Shown: positions 9,378-49,117 of the stretch, piece after piece | Layout: every line of letters starts with the position of its first letter | Numbering within the stretch: the stretch's first letter is position 1 | From: a candidate division BRC1 bacterium HGW-BRC1-1 | Lineage (GTDB): Bacteria > Sumerlaeota > Sumerlaeia > Sumerlaeales > Sumerlaeaceae | Direction: 5' to 3' | NCBI GenBank assembly: GCA_002842095.1 | Contig: PHCB01000001.1 | Span: 186,001 to 250,000 of the forward strand | Length of the DNA stretch: 64,000 nt | Made by a program: the position numbers and the translations under genes | Notes under the pieces: generated by a model | What the model was told of the DNA's origin: nothing | The model's input: only the letters and a program-made list of their open reading frames with translations | Database searches by the model: none

Positions 9378-9475
9378 GATGGACTTTATGGACGATATGG
9401 ACTTAAATGGACGTTATGGACGTGTCAGTTTAGTCGCTGCCCCATATCGTCCATTCAGTCCATTCAGTCCATCCT
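9378..9475. repeat. Inverted array of 9-base ATGGACNNT units (array 1)
   Basis: The left arm (9378-9423) is a run of about five units such as ATGGACTTT and ATGGACGAT. The right arm (about 9441-9475) is the reverse complement type (ATATCGTCC, ATTCAGTCC). The whole could fold as a long hairpin between two minus-strand genes. Two related arrays lie at 19908-19998 and 22767-22866. Confidence 0.85.
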
Positions 9476-19907: not shown

Positions 19908-19998
19908 ATGGACGATATGGACACTATGGACGGTATGGACACAAACCCGTTAAGGTATTGTCGGTGTCCATAGTGTCCATTTCGTCCATATCGTCCAT
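19908..19998. repeat. Inverted array of 9-base ATGGACNNT units (array 2)
   Basis: The left arm (19908-19942) has four units: ATGGACGAT, ATGGACACT, ATGGACGGT, ATGGACAC. The right arm (19964-19998), read on the minus strand, has ATGGACGAT, ATGGACGAA, ATGGACACT, ATGGACAC. The arms pair over nearly their whole 35 bases with a 21-base loop. The array lies between the rplT terminator and the 3' end of leuS. Confidence 0.9.
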
Positions 19999-20004
19999 TT
20001 CCCT

Positions 20005-22671: not shown

Positions 22672-22766
22672 GATGGGGATGGTTACACCCGCACCGGATG
22701 ACGATTTCAAGCGCGGAGAAATGAGGGATTGTTCGCAGAGTGGGCGGATGAGCGGGAATGGCCGGT

Positions 22767-22866
22767 ATGGACTCTATGGACGATATGGACGATATGGACA
22801 TTGGGTTTTCGGATTAGCGGATGTCCATATCGTCCATAGAGTCCATGTCGTCCATAGAGTCCATTT
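22767..22866. repeat. Inverted array of 9-base ATGGACNNT units (array 3)
   Basis: The left arm (22767-22801) has ATGGACTCT, ATGGACGAT, ATGGACGAT, ATGGACAT. The right arm (22821-22866) reads on the minus strand as ATGGACTCT, ATGGACGAC, ATGGACTCT, ATGGACGAT, ATGGACAT. It sits between the start of leuS and the end of gatC. Confidence 0.9.
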
Positions 22867-32200: not shown

Positions 32201-32223
32201 TTGCTGGATCCGGTCGCCAATTA

Positions 32224-32579
32224 GAGCGGTTTTGACGTAAGTGTTAACATATCCTGCAATCTCGAAATAGTTGGAGCATTGGGTTCGGGGCGACTGTGCG
32301 TGCAGGGGCAAACTGGAGGTCGCGCGGAGGCCTGAGGCAGACCGCTGGACGGATAATGGCTTGCCGATTGCGCACCAGTTGAACCGCTTGCACACCGCTT
32401 GCACACCGCTTGCACACCGGTTGCACGCCGGTTGCACGCCGCCAGCAAGTAGGCAAGTGGGAGGCGGTAGCATCACGCACCCTGCGCTGCCGTGATGGCT
32501 ACCGACATCAGGGATGGGCGGTCACAATTCGACATCCCAACGCACCACGAGTCTATAATCATTTGAATCGAAAACGCTC
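32224..32579 (+). mobile_element. MITE-like non-coding element, copy A (356 bp)
   Basis: The element starts GAGCGGTTTTGA and ends TCGAAAACGCTC, imperfect 12-base terminal inverted repeats (10 of 12 match). It is closely related over its whole length to the inverted copy at 46706-47105. Internally it carries five tandem 11-base units (ACCGCTTGCAC, later ACCGGTTGCAC, GCCGGTTGCAC) at about 32383-32437. No transposase is encoded and the short open frames inside are low-complexity products of the 11-base repeats. TA precedes the left end but does not follow the right end in this copy. Confidence 0.8.
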
Positions 32580-32668
32580 CAGCCTACCCCCCTCCGGGGG
32601 CATGGGCAGATGCGCGGGTCTGCACCTACGGGATGAAGATCGTGTAAGCCCTCTCTGACGACATGCAC

Positions 32669-32723: not shown

Positions 32724-35700
32724 TCAGGCTTCCTTCGTGTAGCGGTTCTCCAGCATTTTGCGGACGGCCTCTTCGGTCACGTTCACGCCCATGATGGCGC
32801 GCATGGCTACGACCTGGTTCAACGCGCCCTTAAGTTCGCGCACGTTGGAATCCACGCGCTCGGCGATCATCATGGCAATCTCGGTGTTGAAACCCAGCTC
32901 GTTGGTTTCGATCTCCCGGTTGAGGATGGCCACGCGGGTCTCGTAATCCGGGGCCGCTATGTCCACAATAACACCGGCGCCGAAACGCGACAGCAGGCGG
33001 TTCTCCAGATGAGCAATGTCCTTCGGTGGACGGTCACTCGTCACAACAATCTGGCGTTTGCTCTGGAACAGCGCGTTGAAGATGTGGAAGAATTCCTCCT
33101 GGGCCCGCTCCTTGCCGGAGAGAAACTGCACGTCGTCAACCACCAGCATGTCGATGTTCTTATACTTGCCGCGGAAGGCGTTCACAGCACTCGTCTGAAT
33201 GGCGTTCACCAGTTCGTCCGTGAAGTCCTCGCTGTTTGTATAAATGATGCGCGCGCGCGGATCCTCCCTCAGCACATGGTTTGCGATGGCGTTCACGAGG
33301 TGGGTTTTGCCCAGCCCCACATCGCTGTACAGGAACAACGGATTGTAAGCCCGCGCCGGGGCATTGGCCACAGCCCGCGCCGTGGCATAGGCGAAGTTGT
33401 TGTGGGTACCCACCACGAAATGTTCGAAGTCGTACTCCTTCACGAGTTGCAGGAAACCGTCGCGGGGTGTGACCGCTCCGGCCAGAGGAACGCCACCGGC
33501 CGGCGTGACGCTTTGAGCCGTTTGCATGGCCACGCGGCGATACGCATCAAGGGCTCTTTCCTGATCTCCCAGCGACGCGTATATCTCCGCCCGCTTGATC
33601 AACGTGGAGGGTCGATCCGGTGAAATTTGCAGGACACGCTCCAACGTCTCCAGCGCGGATTCGTGGTCGTTCGTCTCCACTTGCAGCTCGGACAGATTTT
33701 CCAGCTCGGGGATGGCGATGGTAATCTGGTTCGCAGCCACGAGGGCGTCGGCATAGCGAACCCGCGCCGGGGTGTGACGCGGCGAAACCAGCGTGGCTTC
33801 GCGCTCTGCTTCCAGCGCACCCTCCTCGTTGCTCGCCTCGCGCCGCACGTCGGCAATCAGGTGCAACTCGCCCATCGCCTCGGTGCTCATACCCCCGTCG
33901 CGGTAGAACTTGACCAACTGCAACCGCGCATCAACCAACGCGGGGTTGGCCGCAATAACTCGTTTAACCGCTTCGATGGCGCCGGTGTGGTCGCCCGCTT
34001 CGTGCAGCACGTCGGCCAACTGGCGCAACTGCTCGTGGGCTTTCTCCACGTTGCCGAGGCGCTCGTACAAGCGCACCAGTTCCTCGCGCGCTCCCACGTG
34101 CGATGGTCCCGTAGAAAGCACCTGAAGATAGGTGATCTCCGCGTCGTCGTATTCTTCACGGGCGTGGTAATCACGAGCCAGTTCGAACTGCCGTTCCAGC
34201 GCTTCTTCCGTGCGTCCCAAACGGCGCAGGAAGTCGATCCGGTTCATGCGCAAACGGAGATTAGTGGGGTCGGCCTCGGCAATCTGATCGTACACCAGCA
34301 CCGCGTCGCCCTCGCGCGTTTCTTCCAGCAACAACTCCACCAGGAACAGGCCCCGCGTTACGGCCTCTTCCGCGTGGCCGCCGTCACGCAATAGATTGAA
34401 CAGGTCGTGAAGGGTTTCCACATCGTTGGGCTTGCGATCCAGAACAGAAGCCAGCGTGGCCCGGGCATCCTCGGCGTGGTCGCTCTTCACCTGAACCGCC
34501 GCCAACTGCCGCGCCGCCGCACACGCAGCGGATTCATCACCGCGCAGGAATTCGCACGTAATCAGTTCATACAGAATCTCCGGGTCTTCAGCGGAGAACG
34601 TCAGTGCGTCGCGCAAAACCTGCGATTCCCGGGTGTGCTCGCCCGCCTCGCGATGCTGCAACGCCTGCCGCAAACGGGTTGCTGCTGAAAAAATACGCAA
34701 CTCGATCCGCGAGCGTTCCTCGTCGCCAAGTTTCGCGAACAACTCCGCACGAATTTTCATGGCCGACAACCGCTTGGGAGCGATCTCCAACAGCGCGTTG
34801 AGTTGCGCCATGGCCTCCTTCAATCGGTCCGTTTCGATCAAGCGTGAAGCCAGCGCTTCCGAGACATCGCAGGCTTCTTCATCCCGACCCAACCCCGCCA
34901 GCGCCGTAACCTGTCGCAAGCGCAGGGGCACGTCGTCGGGCATCAAATCCGCCGCCTCGCGGTTAGCCACCAAACCGGCCTCGGCGTCACCAGCCTCGCG
35001 GAGCAGATCCGCGATGGACGTCAGTTCTGTGGCCGCCTCCGGCAGGTTGTTCCGGGCCACAAGGTACTCCACAACCATGCGACGGACTTCCACATCGCGG
35101 GGGTGCTTCTCCACGACCTGCCGCGCAACCGCGAGGGCTTCGTCCGTATCGCCGGCCGTGTGCAACGTTTCTGCCAACGCCCGCCATTGCTCGCGTTCGC
35201 GGGTCGCGTCGCCCGTGTCGCGGAACAACTCGGCCAGACGGCGATGCAACCGCGCCTCGCCCGGAGCATGGCCCAGAGCCTCGAACAGCAGTTTCTCGGC
35301 CTCGGCGGCATCACCCGCCTCTGTTTGCAACCGAGCGAGAACCAGCGCCTTCTCCAGGGCCTCCGAACCCAACTCAACCCGACGCAACAATTCCAACTCT
35401 TCGTACTTCCAGCCAAGATCGTCGGCGAATAGGTCCCCCACTTGCGCGAAGGTGCGGGCGGCCTCTCCGGCGCGACCCGAATTAACCTGAAGTTCGGCCA
35501 GACGGCGGGCCCTGTCGCGCACGTCATCCGACGGCGGCTTGCGCATGCTGAGTTCGAACAACAACTCCGCCGTGGGCAAATCTTCCGGAGCATTGTCCGA
35601 TGCCGACCGAAGGACTTCCCGTGCCTCGGGCAATTTTTTGCCCTTCAGTTTCAGACCGGCCAAATCACGCGCCGCCGCACAGGCTTCCTCACCGTGCTCA

Positions 35701-37982
35701 CGCGCAAACTGGCATTCGACCATCAGCGCGAGGAAATCCTCATCGGCGGGGAAAGCAACCAACCCCTCGCCCAACACCCGGCGTTCCTCGTTGCGATCGC
35801 CCTTGTCGCGCCAAACCTTCGCAAGCTCGGCACGCCACAAGTGGGCTGCCTCCGCATCGCCCTGAGCGGTGTACATCTGAACCAATTGATCCAGAGCATC
35901 GATGTCATCGGGAGAGAGAGACGCGACACGTTCCAATGTCGCAACGGCCGATGCGGGATCCCCGGCTCCCGAATAGGCATTTGCCAGCAGGCGCAATGTT
36001 TTCGCCAGTTCTGATGTGGAACTGTGCCCTTCCTGCAAAGCAACCAAATCACCCAGAACGTTCAGGTTCGCGGGAGCCATCGCCAGGGCTTCGACCAGAC
36101 TGCGTTCCGCCGTTTCGAAATCACCCTTTTCGCTCGCTGCCATGGCCGTGTCACGATATGTCGCCAGGGCATCATCGTTGCGTCCGGCTCGCTGCAACAT
36201 GCCCGCCAGACGTTGCGCTATCCCCAGATCCGCAGGAAGCAGCTGTGAGAAATACTCTCCCTCTGCCAGCGCCTCTTCGCCACGGCCGGCCTTGTCCAGC
36301 GCCTCCAGAGCTTCCAACGCTGCGACCCGCGCGAGACGCAGATCGCCCGAACGGAATCGGCTGCGCGCCAGCTTCGACAGCAACTCGGGGCGCATCGGCC
36401 CGAGTGAGCTTGCCCGCAAAAAATGCGATGTCGCGGTGTGTCCCGAGGTCGCATCTTGAAACAGATCGCCGACACTTTCCCATGCGCGACTTGCCGCCTC
36501 CAGGGCGGCCACTTTGCCACTGCGACCAAGTCCCTCCAACGCCTCGGCGCGCCTCATGCCAATTTGTGGATTAGTGGGCTCTGTAACTACCGCGCGTTCC
36601 AGCACCTCGGCCGCCGGACCAAAATCTCCCTGCCCAAGATGAACCGCCGCCAGACGAAGCAACAATTCGTTCGCTTCAACAGTCGCTCCCTGCCCCTCGC
36701 GCACATCCGCACCAGCCAGCAGTGCCGCAGCGTGATTCGGGTACAATTCCAGCACGGTGTCCAACATCTCGCGACCACCGCTCAGATCGCCCTGGTCCAT
36801 CAGCGTCCGCGCAAGATCGACCTTCAGATCCGCAGCTTCGCCCGCGCGTCCCGCCTCCACATATGCCGCATGCAAACGGTCAACAGCTTCGGGCAGCCGC
36901 GGCCAGTGGGTCAGAAGACGCTGCAATGCCTCAATGGCGCGGTCCTTCTCGCCCATCGACGCAAGCAAGTCTGTGGCCGCCAACACGCGCGGCAGATAGT
37001 CCTCGCGCGGCGACGCCAGCAGAGCGTACTCGATCCACTTCGACCGGATATCGGAGCGATCAGGCAACACATCAAACAGCGGTTCCAGTTCCCCCGCCGC
37101 GGTGGTGAAGTCCGCGTGGTTTGCCGCGCGCGATGCCTTCCCCGTAATGTGGTCCACGCAATCGTCCAAACGCCCCGCCTGTGTGAACGCATGAATCAGG
37201 TGCGGGTTCACATCGACGATATCCACGTCCAAATCTTCGATGCGCGTATACGCTTCAATGGCCCCCGGCCAATCCGCCGCGGCTTCGCACAAGTCTGCGG
37301 CAGCCATGAATTCTTCCAGCGCCGATTCCTTGTCATGCATCTGAAGGAAACATTCGGCGACAAGTTTGCGACACGCAGTGTCGTTTGGTCGCGAAGCAGC
37401 AAGCGCCCGCGCCTGATCCAGCGCGCTGTCCATCTGACGGTTCTGCAACGCCATGCGAACCAGCGCCTGCCGGCTGCGCGTCTGGGTTTCCTCATCTTCG
37501 CGCGCTATCGCTGTTTTCAACAAACCAGTCCACGCCCGCTCGAAAGCCGGCTCCGCATCGACGATGGCTTCAAACGTCTTCGCCGCATCATCCAGATAAC
37601 CGAGATCGAGATAGTTCTCGGCCACCTCCACATTTTTCTTCAACAGTTCCGGATCTTGAGGAATGCGAATGCTGATGCCGAACTCGGTCATCAGCGCCTC
37701 GGCCGCTTCGTTCTCATTGATACGGCGCGCCAGGGCCACCAGGCGCACAAGACTACCACCCTCGGCGCCATCGCACAAACCATACATGCAGCGGAAGGTC
37801 TGGTGGTCTTTGTTCACGACCAACGTGCGAAACACATTCTCCCGGTGAATGGGGCAGAACGCTCGCAGCGTATCTCCCGCGTCTTGAATTTTCTCGGCTT
37901 TGTAACCGATGAACTCCAACACACGTCGCGGATCGACGGCGTTGTTAATCTCAATTAAGCTGCTGTCGGGAAATATCCTCAT
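32724..37982 (-). CDS. Giant fusion: CHC2 zinc finger, TPR-like array and DnaA AAA+ domain
   Basis: A protein of 1,752 residues in three parts. Residues 15-105 resemble the DnaG-type CHC2 zinc finger: Cys43 and His46 (FCPIH), Cys65 and Cys70 (CMYGLC), then the VRLVALARRI helix and EALMTEFGI. Residues about 115-1,500 are alternating helices of TPR type (repeated GD..EA...Y..AL...P..), arranged in larger units of roughly 100 residues. Residues 1,504-1,752 match DnaA domain III: YDFEHFVVGTHNNFAYA, P-loop SDVGLGKT (1,553-1,560), Walker B MLVVDDVQFL, sensor 1 VVTSDRPP, the arginine-finger helix ENRLLSRFG and sensor 2 SNVRELKGALNQ. It stops there, without the DNA-binding domain IV. The ATG at 37982 was chosen; longer starts run into the divergent gene. 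Function unknown; it is not a canonical initiator. Confidence 0.88.
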   Translation of the reverse strand: MRIFPDSSLIEINNAVDPRRVLEFIGYKAEKIQDAGDTLRAFCPIHRENVFRTLVVNKDHQTFRCMYGLCDGAEGGSLVRLVALARRINENEAAEALMTEFGISIRIPQDPELLKKNVEVAENYLDLGYLDDAAKTFEAIVDAEPAFERAWTGLLKTAIAREDEETQTRSRQALVRMALQNRQMDSALDQARALAASRPNDTACRKLVAECFLQMHDKESALEEFMAAADLCEAAADWPGAIEAYTRIEDLDVDIVDVNPHLIHAFTQAGRLDDCVDHITGKASRAANHADFTTAAGELEPLFDVLPDRSDIRSKWIEYALLASPREDYLPRVLAATDLLASMGEKDRAIEALQRLLTHWPRLPEAVDRLHAAYVEAGRAGEAADLKVDLARTLMDQGDLSGGREMLDTVLELYPNHAAALLAGADVREGQGATVEANELLLRLAAVHLGQGDFGPAAEVLERAVVTEPTNPQIGMRRAEALEGLGRSGKVAALEAASRAWESVGDLFQDATSGHTATSHFLRASSLGPMRPELLSKLARSRFRSGDLRLARVAALEALEALDKAGRGEEALAEGEYFSQLLPADLGIAQRLAGMLQRAGRNDDALATYRDTAMAASEKGDFETAERSLVEALAMAPANLNVLGDLVALQEGHSSTSELAKTLRLLANAYSGAGDPASAVATLERVASLSPDDIDALDQLVQMYTAQGDAEAAHLWRAELAKVWRDKGDRNEERRVLGEGLVAFPADEDFLALMVECQFAREHGEEACAAARDLAGLKLKGKKLPEAREVLRSASDNAPEDLPTAELLFELSMRKPPSDDVRDRARRLAELQVNSGRAGEAARTFAQVGDLFADDLGWKYEELELLRRVELGSEALEKALVLARLQTEAGDAAEAEKLLFEALGHAPGEARLHRRLAELFRDTGDATREREQWRALAETLHTAGDTDEALAVARQVVEKHPRDVEVRRMVVEYLVARNNLPEAATELTSIADLLREAGDAEAGLVANREAADLMPDDVPLRLRQVTALAGLGRDEEACDVSEALASRLIETDRLKEAMAQLNALLEIAPKRLSAMKIRAELFAKLGDEERSRIELRIFSAATRLRQALQHREAGEHTRESQVLRDALTFSAEDPEILYELITCEFLRGDESAACAAARQLAAVQVKSDHAEDARATLASVLDRKPNDVETLHDLFNLLRDGGHAEEAVTRGLFLVELLLEETREGDAVLVYDQIAEADPTNLRLRMNRIDFLRRLGRTEEALERQFELARDYHAREEYDDAEITYLQVLSTGPSHVGAREELVRLYERLGNVEKAHEQLRQLADVLHEAGDHTGAIEAVKRVIAANPALVDARLQLVKFYRDGGMSTEAMGELHLIADVRREASNEEGALEAEREATLVSPRHTPARVRYADALVAANQITIAIPELENLSELQVETNDHESALETLERVLQISPDRPSTLIKRAEIYASLGDQERALDAYRRVAMQTAQSVTPAGGVPLAGAVTPRDGFLQLVKEYDFEHFVVGTHNNFAYATARAVANAPARAYNPLFLYSDVGLGKTHLVNAIANHVLREDPRARIIYTNSEDFTDELVNAIQTSAVNAFRGKYKNIDMLVVDDVQFLSGKERAQEEFFHIFNALFQSKRQIVVTSDRPPKDIAHLENRLLSRFGAGVIVDIAAPDYETRVAILNREIETNELGFNTEIAMMIAERVDSNVRELKGALNQVVAMRAIMGVNVTEEAVRKMLENRYTKEA

Positions 37983-38085
37983 GATGGCTTCAGATTTAGT
38001 GAAGCCCGAAGCGCTGCTTGCAAAAGAATTATCGCCTGAATCATGATCCAATCGCTTCAAAGAACCCTCAGGAGAAGCCCCCAAT

Positions 38086-46614: not shown

Positions 46615-46705
46615 GGGCGAACACATAGGTTCACCCCTACGATGGGCGCATCACGAATCAGCCACCGACCCCAAAACGGTTTCACCTGAAAAACCGCCCG
46701 ACCTA
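46615..46705. repeat. Dispersed repeat (copy 3), interrupted by MITE copy B
   Basis: From GGGCGAACACATAGG to AAAACCGCCCGACC this matches the first three quarters of the 43958 copy in the same orientation. At 46706 the MITE-like element begins; beyond it, GCGTAGGGGCGAACCCGCGCC (about 47170-47190) looks like the displaced right end. Confidence 0.75.
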
Positions 46706-47105
46706 GAGCGTTTTCGATTCAAATGACTACAGACTCGCGGTGCGCTGGGTTGTCGAATTGTGACCGCCCATCCCTGTGGTAGGTAGCTACCACGGCCTCG
46801 CTCGGGCGCCCGATTCTACCGCTTCCCACTTGCCCACTTGCTGGCGGATGGCAACCCCGATGCGACCGGCGTGCAACCGGTGTGCAAGCGGTGTGCAACC
46901 GGTGTGCAACCGGTGTGCAAGCGGTGTGCAAGCGGTGTGCAAGCGGTGCAAATGTCTCGCAATCGGCAAGCCATTATTTACATAGAGGCCTGCCTCACGC
47001 CTCCACGCGGCCTCCAGTTTGTCCTTCACGCACAGTCGCCCAGAACCCAATGCTCCAACTATTTCGAGATTGCAGGATATCTTAACACTTACATCAAAAC
47101 CGCTC
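46706..47105 (-). mobile_element. MITE-like non-coding element, copy B (400 bp)
   Basis: The inverted relative of the element at 32224-32579. Ends are GAGCGTTTTCGA (46706) and, on the minus strand, GAGCGGTTTTGA (47105). It carries about eight 11-base units (46860-46948) against five in copy A, which accounts for 33 of the 44 extra bases. TA flanks both ends (46704-46705 and 47106-47107), consistent with a TA target duplication of the IS630/Tc1-mariner kind. No transposase is encoded. Confidence 0.8.
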
Positions 47106-47263
47106 TAATCAATACGTATGGGCGGTGGAGGGCTGGAAAGCCCCCCTCCTGTAAAACGCACGGCTTAATGCGTAGGGGCGAACCCGCGCCCTCGCCACCC
47201 GCGAGGTCACCGGGACCCTTCCCTGAACGGAAACGATTCCCCCCGCCATATCTGTCAGAGCAA

Positions 47264-49069: not shown

Positions 49070-49117
49070 CAATCAGACCCGTCAGACACGTCAGACCAGT
49101 CAGACTTGTCAGACTTT
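49070..49117. repeat. Tandem 9-base GTCAGACNN repeat
   Basis: About five units in direct order: ATCAGACCC, GTCAGACAC, GTCAGACCA, GTCAGACTT, GTCAGACTT. The 9-base period with a fixed core and two variable bases is the same design as the ATGGACNNT arrays. A CAGAC-GTCTG mini-hairpin precedes it at about 49048-49061, at the end of the FAD-subunit gene. Confidence 0.85.

Follow-up and report, generated by a model that had tools for sequence, protein, structure and literature searches.

The window, a stretch of 64,000 nucleotides from a candidate division BRC1 bacterium (HGW-BRC1-1), contains two elements, A and B, that belong to a repeat family designated F1. An earlier note on this DNA had described both elements and their ends, and they are present as it placed them:

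32222..32223: TA at the left border of copy A, in the context TTA
32224..32579, plus strand: F1 copy A (locus L001), full length, 356 bp
32224..32235, plus strand: left terminal inverted repeat (TIR) of copy A, GAGCGGTTTTGA
32388..32442, plus strand: 11-bp array of copy A, 5 units, types aabcd
32568..32579, minus strand: right TIR of copy A, GAGCGTTTTCGA, read on the minus strand
46704..46705: TA at the right end of copy B
46706..47105, minus strand: F1 copy B (locus L026), full length, 400 bp
46866..46942, minus strand: 11-bp array of copy B, 7 canonical units (aabbabc), then one degenerate unit
47106..47107: TA at the left end of copy B

TA is thus present on both sides of copy B, as had been claimed, and the right border of copy A is CA, the second TA having been lost or mutated. 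The unit counts reported previously, five against eight, hold for A, and eight is acceptable for B if the degenerate unit is added to the seven canonical ones; Tandem Repeats Finder returns copy numbers of 5.5 for A and 7.5 for B.

The surrounding DNA has other features. On the minus strand at 32724-38084 there is an open frame of 1786 aa which, to judge from its translation, seems to combine a zinc-finger/TPR part with a DnaA-like C-terminal part. Tandem arrays with a 9-bp period occur at 9379-9472, 19908-20001, 22758-22864 and 49073-49114; among these, ATGGACGAT and GTCCATAGA apparently form facing pairs, and TCAGACCCG is also found. Short GC-rich phrases such as gggttcgcccctacg and gtaggggtgaacctatgtgttcgccc are found repeatedly next to F1 and array loci, in the window at 47175-47220, 46620-46660 and 32585-32640, and may represent another interspersed repeat.

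A blastn search with copy A as query against its own genome (3,768,617 bases in 34 contigs, 94.76% complete) returned 41 rows at 74-100% identity. Two of these are halves of one copy, so that the family occupies 40 places. Thirty of these are full-length copies, which constitute the oriented set used below; this excludes the partial loci L023 and L032-L040, and L041 was dropped as a repeat of L030. An alignment of 29 rows was made from this set, with L030 omitted because of a large deletion. An extra right-end fragment is located at the start of a contig. The copies are about 333-412 bp long, and one with an internal deletion measures 290 bp. The inverted ends are GAGCGGTTTTGA on the left and GAGCGTTTTCGA on the right (minus strand), and the imperfection of the 12-base TIRs noted for the window copies extends to the family, with 8-11 of the 12 positions in agreement (mean 9.2) across the 30 full copies. 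Similarity among copies falls to background within 3-4 bases of the ends, and from the fourth base outward there is no agreement. The earlier note had named a lack of further copies, or ends that do not coincide with a sharp loss of similarity, as grounds against its reading; the family has many copies, and their ends are sharp.

The bases that flank these ends reveal a preferred target. TA adjoins the left end in 25 of the 30 full copies, the right end in 22 and both ends in 18; one base further out, 28 of 30 copies have a pyrimidine at the left end and all 30 a purine at the right. The target of F1 looks like YTAR, with an apparent duplication of TA that is now partly eroded. In twelve of the 30 copies TA is missing from at least one side, and the retention of the purine/pyrimidine context suggests that this is due to decay. 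The description of F1 as a MITE-like family with terminal inverted repeats is thereby borne out: F1 is a genuine, old and decayed MITE family with ordinary ends.

The positions of individual copies are consistent with this target. Since both ends of F1 start with G, TA followed by the element yields a TAG codon in either direction. A pair of convergent genes terminates within the putatively duplicated TA at each of L002 and L030, and a single gene does so at L011 and at L015. The gene pairs, identified by Pfam, are a glycosyltransferase with a UDP-sugar dehydrogenase at L002 and a type II/IV secretion ATPase with a phosphatase at L030. Removal of one TA at these two loci would leave overlapping stop codons, at TTAG and TTAA, and these overlaps fit a duplication of TA. 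In a genome of another genus of the same family (G002) the two L002 genes likewise converge; their stop codons are 112 bp apart, the element is missing, and the dehydrogenase terminates at the residue that matches its end at L002. The intergenic sequence of this pair is different. G002 thus offers a relative that lacks the element here rather than a precise counterpart of the site before insertion; the check for empty sites and a duplicated TA that had been proposed turned up no precise empty site. Among the 30 full copies there was no convincing insertion within a gene that restores a reading frame. With neighbouring genes called by a crude codon-score script rather than a gene finder, both neighbours were identified for 22 copies, and 10 of these lie between convergent genes, whereas 9 of the 45 neighbouring gene pairs of the window are convergent (P=0.006); the excess over the share of intergenic bases has P=4e-5.

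The earlier note had also proposed to look for an autonomous IS630-type element with the same ends as F1. A pattern of 24 bases from the left end (up to 3 mismatches) occurs at 27 places in the genome and one of 27 bases from the right end at 35, all of them F1 copies or fragments. When a 14-base end pattern was allowed a single mismatch, 64 places were found, compared with 12 for the reversed control, and the excess consists of F1. No transposase that shares the ends of F1 was found in the assembly, which is 94.76% complete; the partner may have been lost, so its absence is not decisive against a MITE. A single gene in the genome matches Pfam DDE_3; it lies at the end of contig C30 (locus L042) and encodes an intact IS630-type transposase. 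That this enzyme moved F1 has some attraction. Both elements target TA; on contig C16 an IS end of the L042 type is followed by TA and then by F1 copy L007 (G000:C16:120470-120834), so that the two abut over a shared TA; and both IS ends contain the 7-mer CGTAAGT, which F1 also has close to its left end. However, the ends of this IS, TA followed by GTATTCTCTTGC and TA followed by GTACTCCCTTGC (also given as TA followed by GTAYTCYCTTGC), are of a type common to several IS630 relatives in other bacteria (GTRCTTACTTGC) and are unlike GAGCGGTTTTGA, while chance can produce such an adjacency for two elements that insert at TA. The junction at L007 is just this, two TA-inserting elements side by side without shared ends, and we consider it improbable that L042 mobilized F1. 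Because the DDE_3 transposase has other ends, F1 is not filed as IS630-derived. From the earlier proposal of IS630/Tc1-type insertion, then, the TA target survives and IS630-type mobilization may be inferred from it; the expected IS630 with F1 ends was not found in the assembly. The ends of contigs C30 and C16 share an overlap through which the two contigs could be linked.

A search with the family consensus had been recommended for this genome and its relatives; in this genome copy A as query yielded the 40 places described above. F1 was found in 0 of 40 relatives at E≤0.001, its own genome aside, and in a comparison of the consensus with 40 genomes of the phylum, this one included, the only additional hit was a 31-base match in one genome (G027) that is likely due to chance. 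There is therefore no sign of movement between strains. A pattern of two array units was likewise found in 0 of 40 relatives. An exact 25-base pattern had no match in the genome_contigs collection and an exact 18-base pattern none in viral_contigs, collections from which records near the genome of the window may be absent.

A dispersed family of noncoding elements might instead consist of genes for a structured or regulatory RNA, and an RNA structure had indeed been suggested. Some internal blocks of F1 are well conserved, and copy B, in the sense of the element, folds somewhat better than shuffled sequences (z=-2.86). Against this, the other three folds, from both copies and both strands, have z-scores of -1.40, 0.40 and -0.09, only 2 of the 70 pairs in the consensus fold exhibit changes on both sides, the covariation term is -0.19, and Rfam gave no match in four loci. 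Dispersal and sharp ends bounded by YTAR are, moreover, traits of mobile elements. The suggestion of a structured RNA was not upheld, and we regard an RNA gene family as very improbable.

The array at the center of F1 consists of 2-8 canonical units in a polar order, with the consensus (TTGCACRCCGS)n; the units, TTGCAC-R-CCG-S, are of type a (ending in ACCGC), b (ACCGG) or c (GCCGG). It is not private to F1, a point absent from the earlier reading. Two adjacent units, with one mismatch allowed, occur at 194 places in the genome, and a listing of array starts has 41 places, 10 in F1 and 31 elsewhere, which with the 40 F1 places makes 71 array loci. The arms of the 31 non-F1 loci were compared by blastn and their left arms were read individually, since one blastn cluster of 54 left arms joins F1 to a second family, F2, through locus L096. 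At least one F2 arm is present at 18 of the 31. The ends of F2, GGGACTGCTGAA and TTCAGCAGTCCC, differ from those of F1, and 5-bp target duplications are exact in three of its five two-ended copies (GAATT, GATCC and GTTTC); of the other two, one matches at four of five bases and one fails. L086, L087, L090 and other F2 loci represent a second, older MITE family with apparent 5-bp duplications. Two families that differ in both their ends and the length of their duplications thus share one array, and this is shared in turn with other loci.

Some array loci are chimeric in their arms. At L085 an F2 left arm is combined with an F1 right arm that includes the F1 TIR, at L096 a left arm resembling that of F1 (about 75% identity) with an F2 right arm, and at L117 the left arm of L070 and L114 with a sequence weakly similar (68%) to the right arm of L080. 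These chimeric loci are internal to contigs, where misassembly at short repeats is possible in principle. The remaining 13 of the 31 loci possess neither F1 nor F2 arms, and three of them (L076, L118 and L120) share an arm with no other locus. This raises the prospect that the array is itself mobile, or arises independently, with arms added around it, and the fact that the first and last units hold their polar order (b to c) in different contexts might be taken in the same sense. However, several of the 13 share one arm with one another (L070, L114 and L117; L080, L111 and L119; L074 and L083; L078 and L116), as would be expected of decayed or truncated families, and neither a duplication nor an end sequence was found for the array alone. 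An array that moves or arises by itself is accordingly an unlikely source of this distribution.

The F1 copies permit a comparison of the array with the arms that surround it. A locus outside F1 had to match an exact two-unit pattern to be listed, which in itself ensures that its first two units look conserved, and only the comparison within F1 is free of this bias. At nine fixed unit positions, 9 of 1179 array letters differ from the consensus, in 7 events, compared with 692 of 7906 letters in the non-array columns of the arms. At the arm rate, 79 differences would be expected in the array on the terminal branches alone. Tiling between fixed anchors with no mismatch limit disclosed no hidden degenerate units besides a degenerate tail that is family-wide. 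The tree of the F1 arms has the shape of a star; its end branches have a median of 0.067, and the median private arm divergence is about 7%, which indicates that much of the arm change took place after insertion. However, 609 of 806 variant cells are common to at least two copies, so that either subfamilies exist to some degree or the same changes have recurred. Unit number does not track the arm tree, requiring 16 changes compared with a mean of 16.67 after shuffling, with 82 of 200 shuffles at or below the observed value.

Even if the units within each array were fully homogenized, 18.6 events would be expected on the terminal branches, and 7 were seen (Poisson P of about 0.002). The low divergence of the F1 array needs either selection or homogenization between loci. 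The array could in principle be unconstrained and look conserved through recombination or gene conversion between loci, a process that would at the same time explain the arm swaps at L085, L096 and L117. One variant has spread over three units at L024, and the freedom with which unit number varies across the tree points in the same direction. On the other hand, type a units (TTGCACACCGC) are kept at the left of F1 arrays and are rare in the 31 other arrays, which implies limited exchange between the families; the arrays are short, at 22-88 bp; and homogenization within a locus, as the expected 18.6 events make clear, cannot by itself reduce divergence between loci. Exchange without constraint is a contender to be taken seriously, to which we would nevertheless give less than even odds.

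A promoter was also considered as the role of the array. Neighbouring units, read as TTGCAC-N5-TTGCA, have the spacing of a sigma-54 promoter, but its -24 box would be TTGCAC instead of TGGCAC. Moreover, of the 25 non-F1 loci for which a right-hand gene was called, by the same crude approach as above, 17 have that gene directed away from the array, near the window background of about 60% of intergenic bases, and the promoter was rejected. A bound array would be compatible with the strong sequence constraint on the units.

As a whole, these results favor the view, to which we assign a probability of about 0.78, that F1 is a non-autonomous MITE within a BOX-like composite system, in which the array permits arms to be swapped and the core is constrained or homogenized. 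F1 would have spread in intergenic DNA, presumably by cut-and-paste insertion at YTAR with duplication of TA, driven by a transposase no longer visible in the assembly and whose type we infer. Each element comprises a left arm, 2-8 eleven-base units in tandem and a right arm. The same array is carried by at least one further MITE family, F2, which has other ends and apparent duplications of 5 bp, and arms would be exchanged at the array. Unit number would change often, probably via slippage or unequal recombination. To judge from the median private arm divergence, the insertions are old, and the near absence of change in the array suggests selection after insertion or homogenization between loci. 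If there is selection, it may act on a row of putative binding sites one helical turn apart. A tentative extension, on the doubtful side in our estimation, is that at least two unrelated MITE families seeded the same 11-bp array at about 70 intergenic places in 3.77 Mb, and that the host keeps its letters while the rest decays, as a multi-site binding network in helical phase. The role of a middle module is in any case testable, because a mere passenger should decay with its arms and the F1 array does not. Tandem cores may also let mobile repeats swap their ends.

How does this system compare with known small repeats? Excerpts of the papers cited below form the basis of the comparison, and in the literature found, on bacterial MITEs with internal tandem repeats, we recognized no description of F1. 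RUP of Streptococcus pneumoniae is a small, non-autonomous intergenic repeat with a TIR and TA borders that has been attributed to an IS630-type transposase (PMC2229807). F1 resembles it in each of these structural traits; unlike F1, RUP is described as 107 bp long with no tandem core, and its ends resemble those of IS630-Spn1, whereas F1 has no matching IS in the assembly. The Correia or NEMIS elements of Neisseria have a TIR, a target duplication and TA termini and may carry a DNA motif, and F1 is like them in its TIR and TA borders and probably in its target duplication, the carried motif being a possibility in both; neither a tandem array nor an exchange of arms is mentioned for them in the sections consulted, which sets them apart from F1 (PMC2229807).

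The closest parallel is with BOX, the composite repeat of S. pneumoniae and S. suis, in which end modules surround a tandem boxB, with a TIR and target duplications, and of which 17 lone modules are reported (PMC3049150). BOX is over-represented between convergent genes, and the repeat supplies a stop codon in 36 cases; in S. suis two families of end modules (A/C and E/F) share boxB modules (PMC3049150). F1 and F2 share with BOX two end modules, a tandem middle of variable number, a TIR, apparent duplications and the occurrence of lone modules, F1 has the same excess between convergent genes and involvement in the stop codons of its neighbours, and, as in S. suis, different end modules surround a common tandem module. 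The boxB unit is tens of bp long, in contrast to the 11 bp of the F1/F2 unit. As far as the excerpts go, two further differences are that the duplications of F1 and F2 are unlike each other (TA and 5 bp), and that BOX is predicted to fold tightly, whereas RNA structure is not supported for F1. In the literature found, BOX-type composite repeats are streptococcal, and the same architecture is now seen in another genome. We liken the two by description, not by sequence or membership: the F1/F2 system works in the manner of streptococcal BOX.
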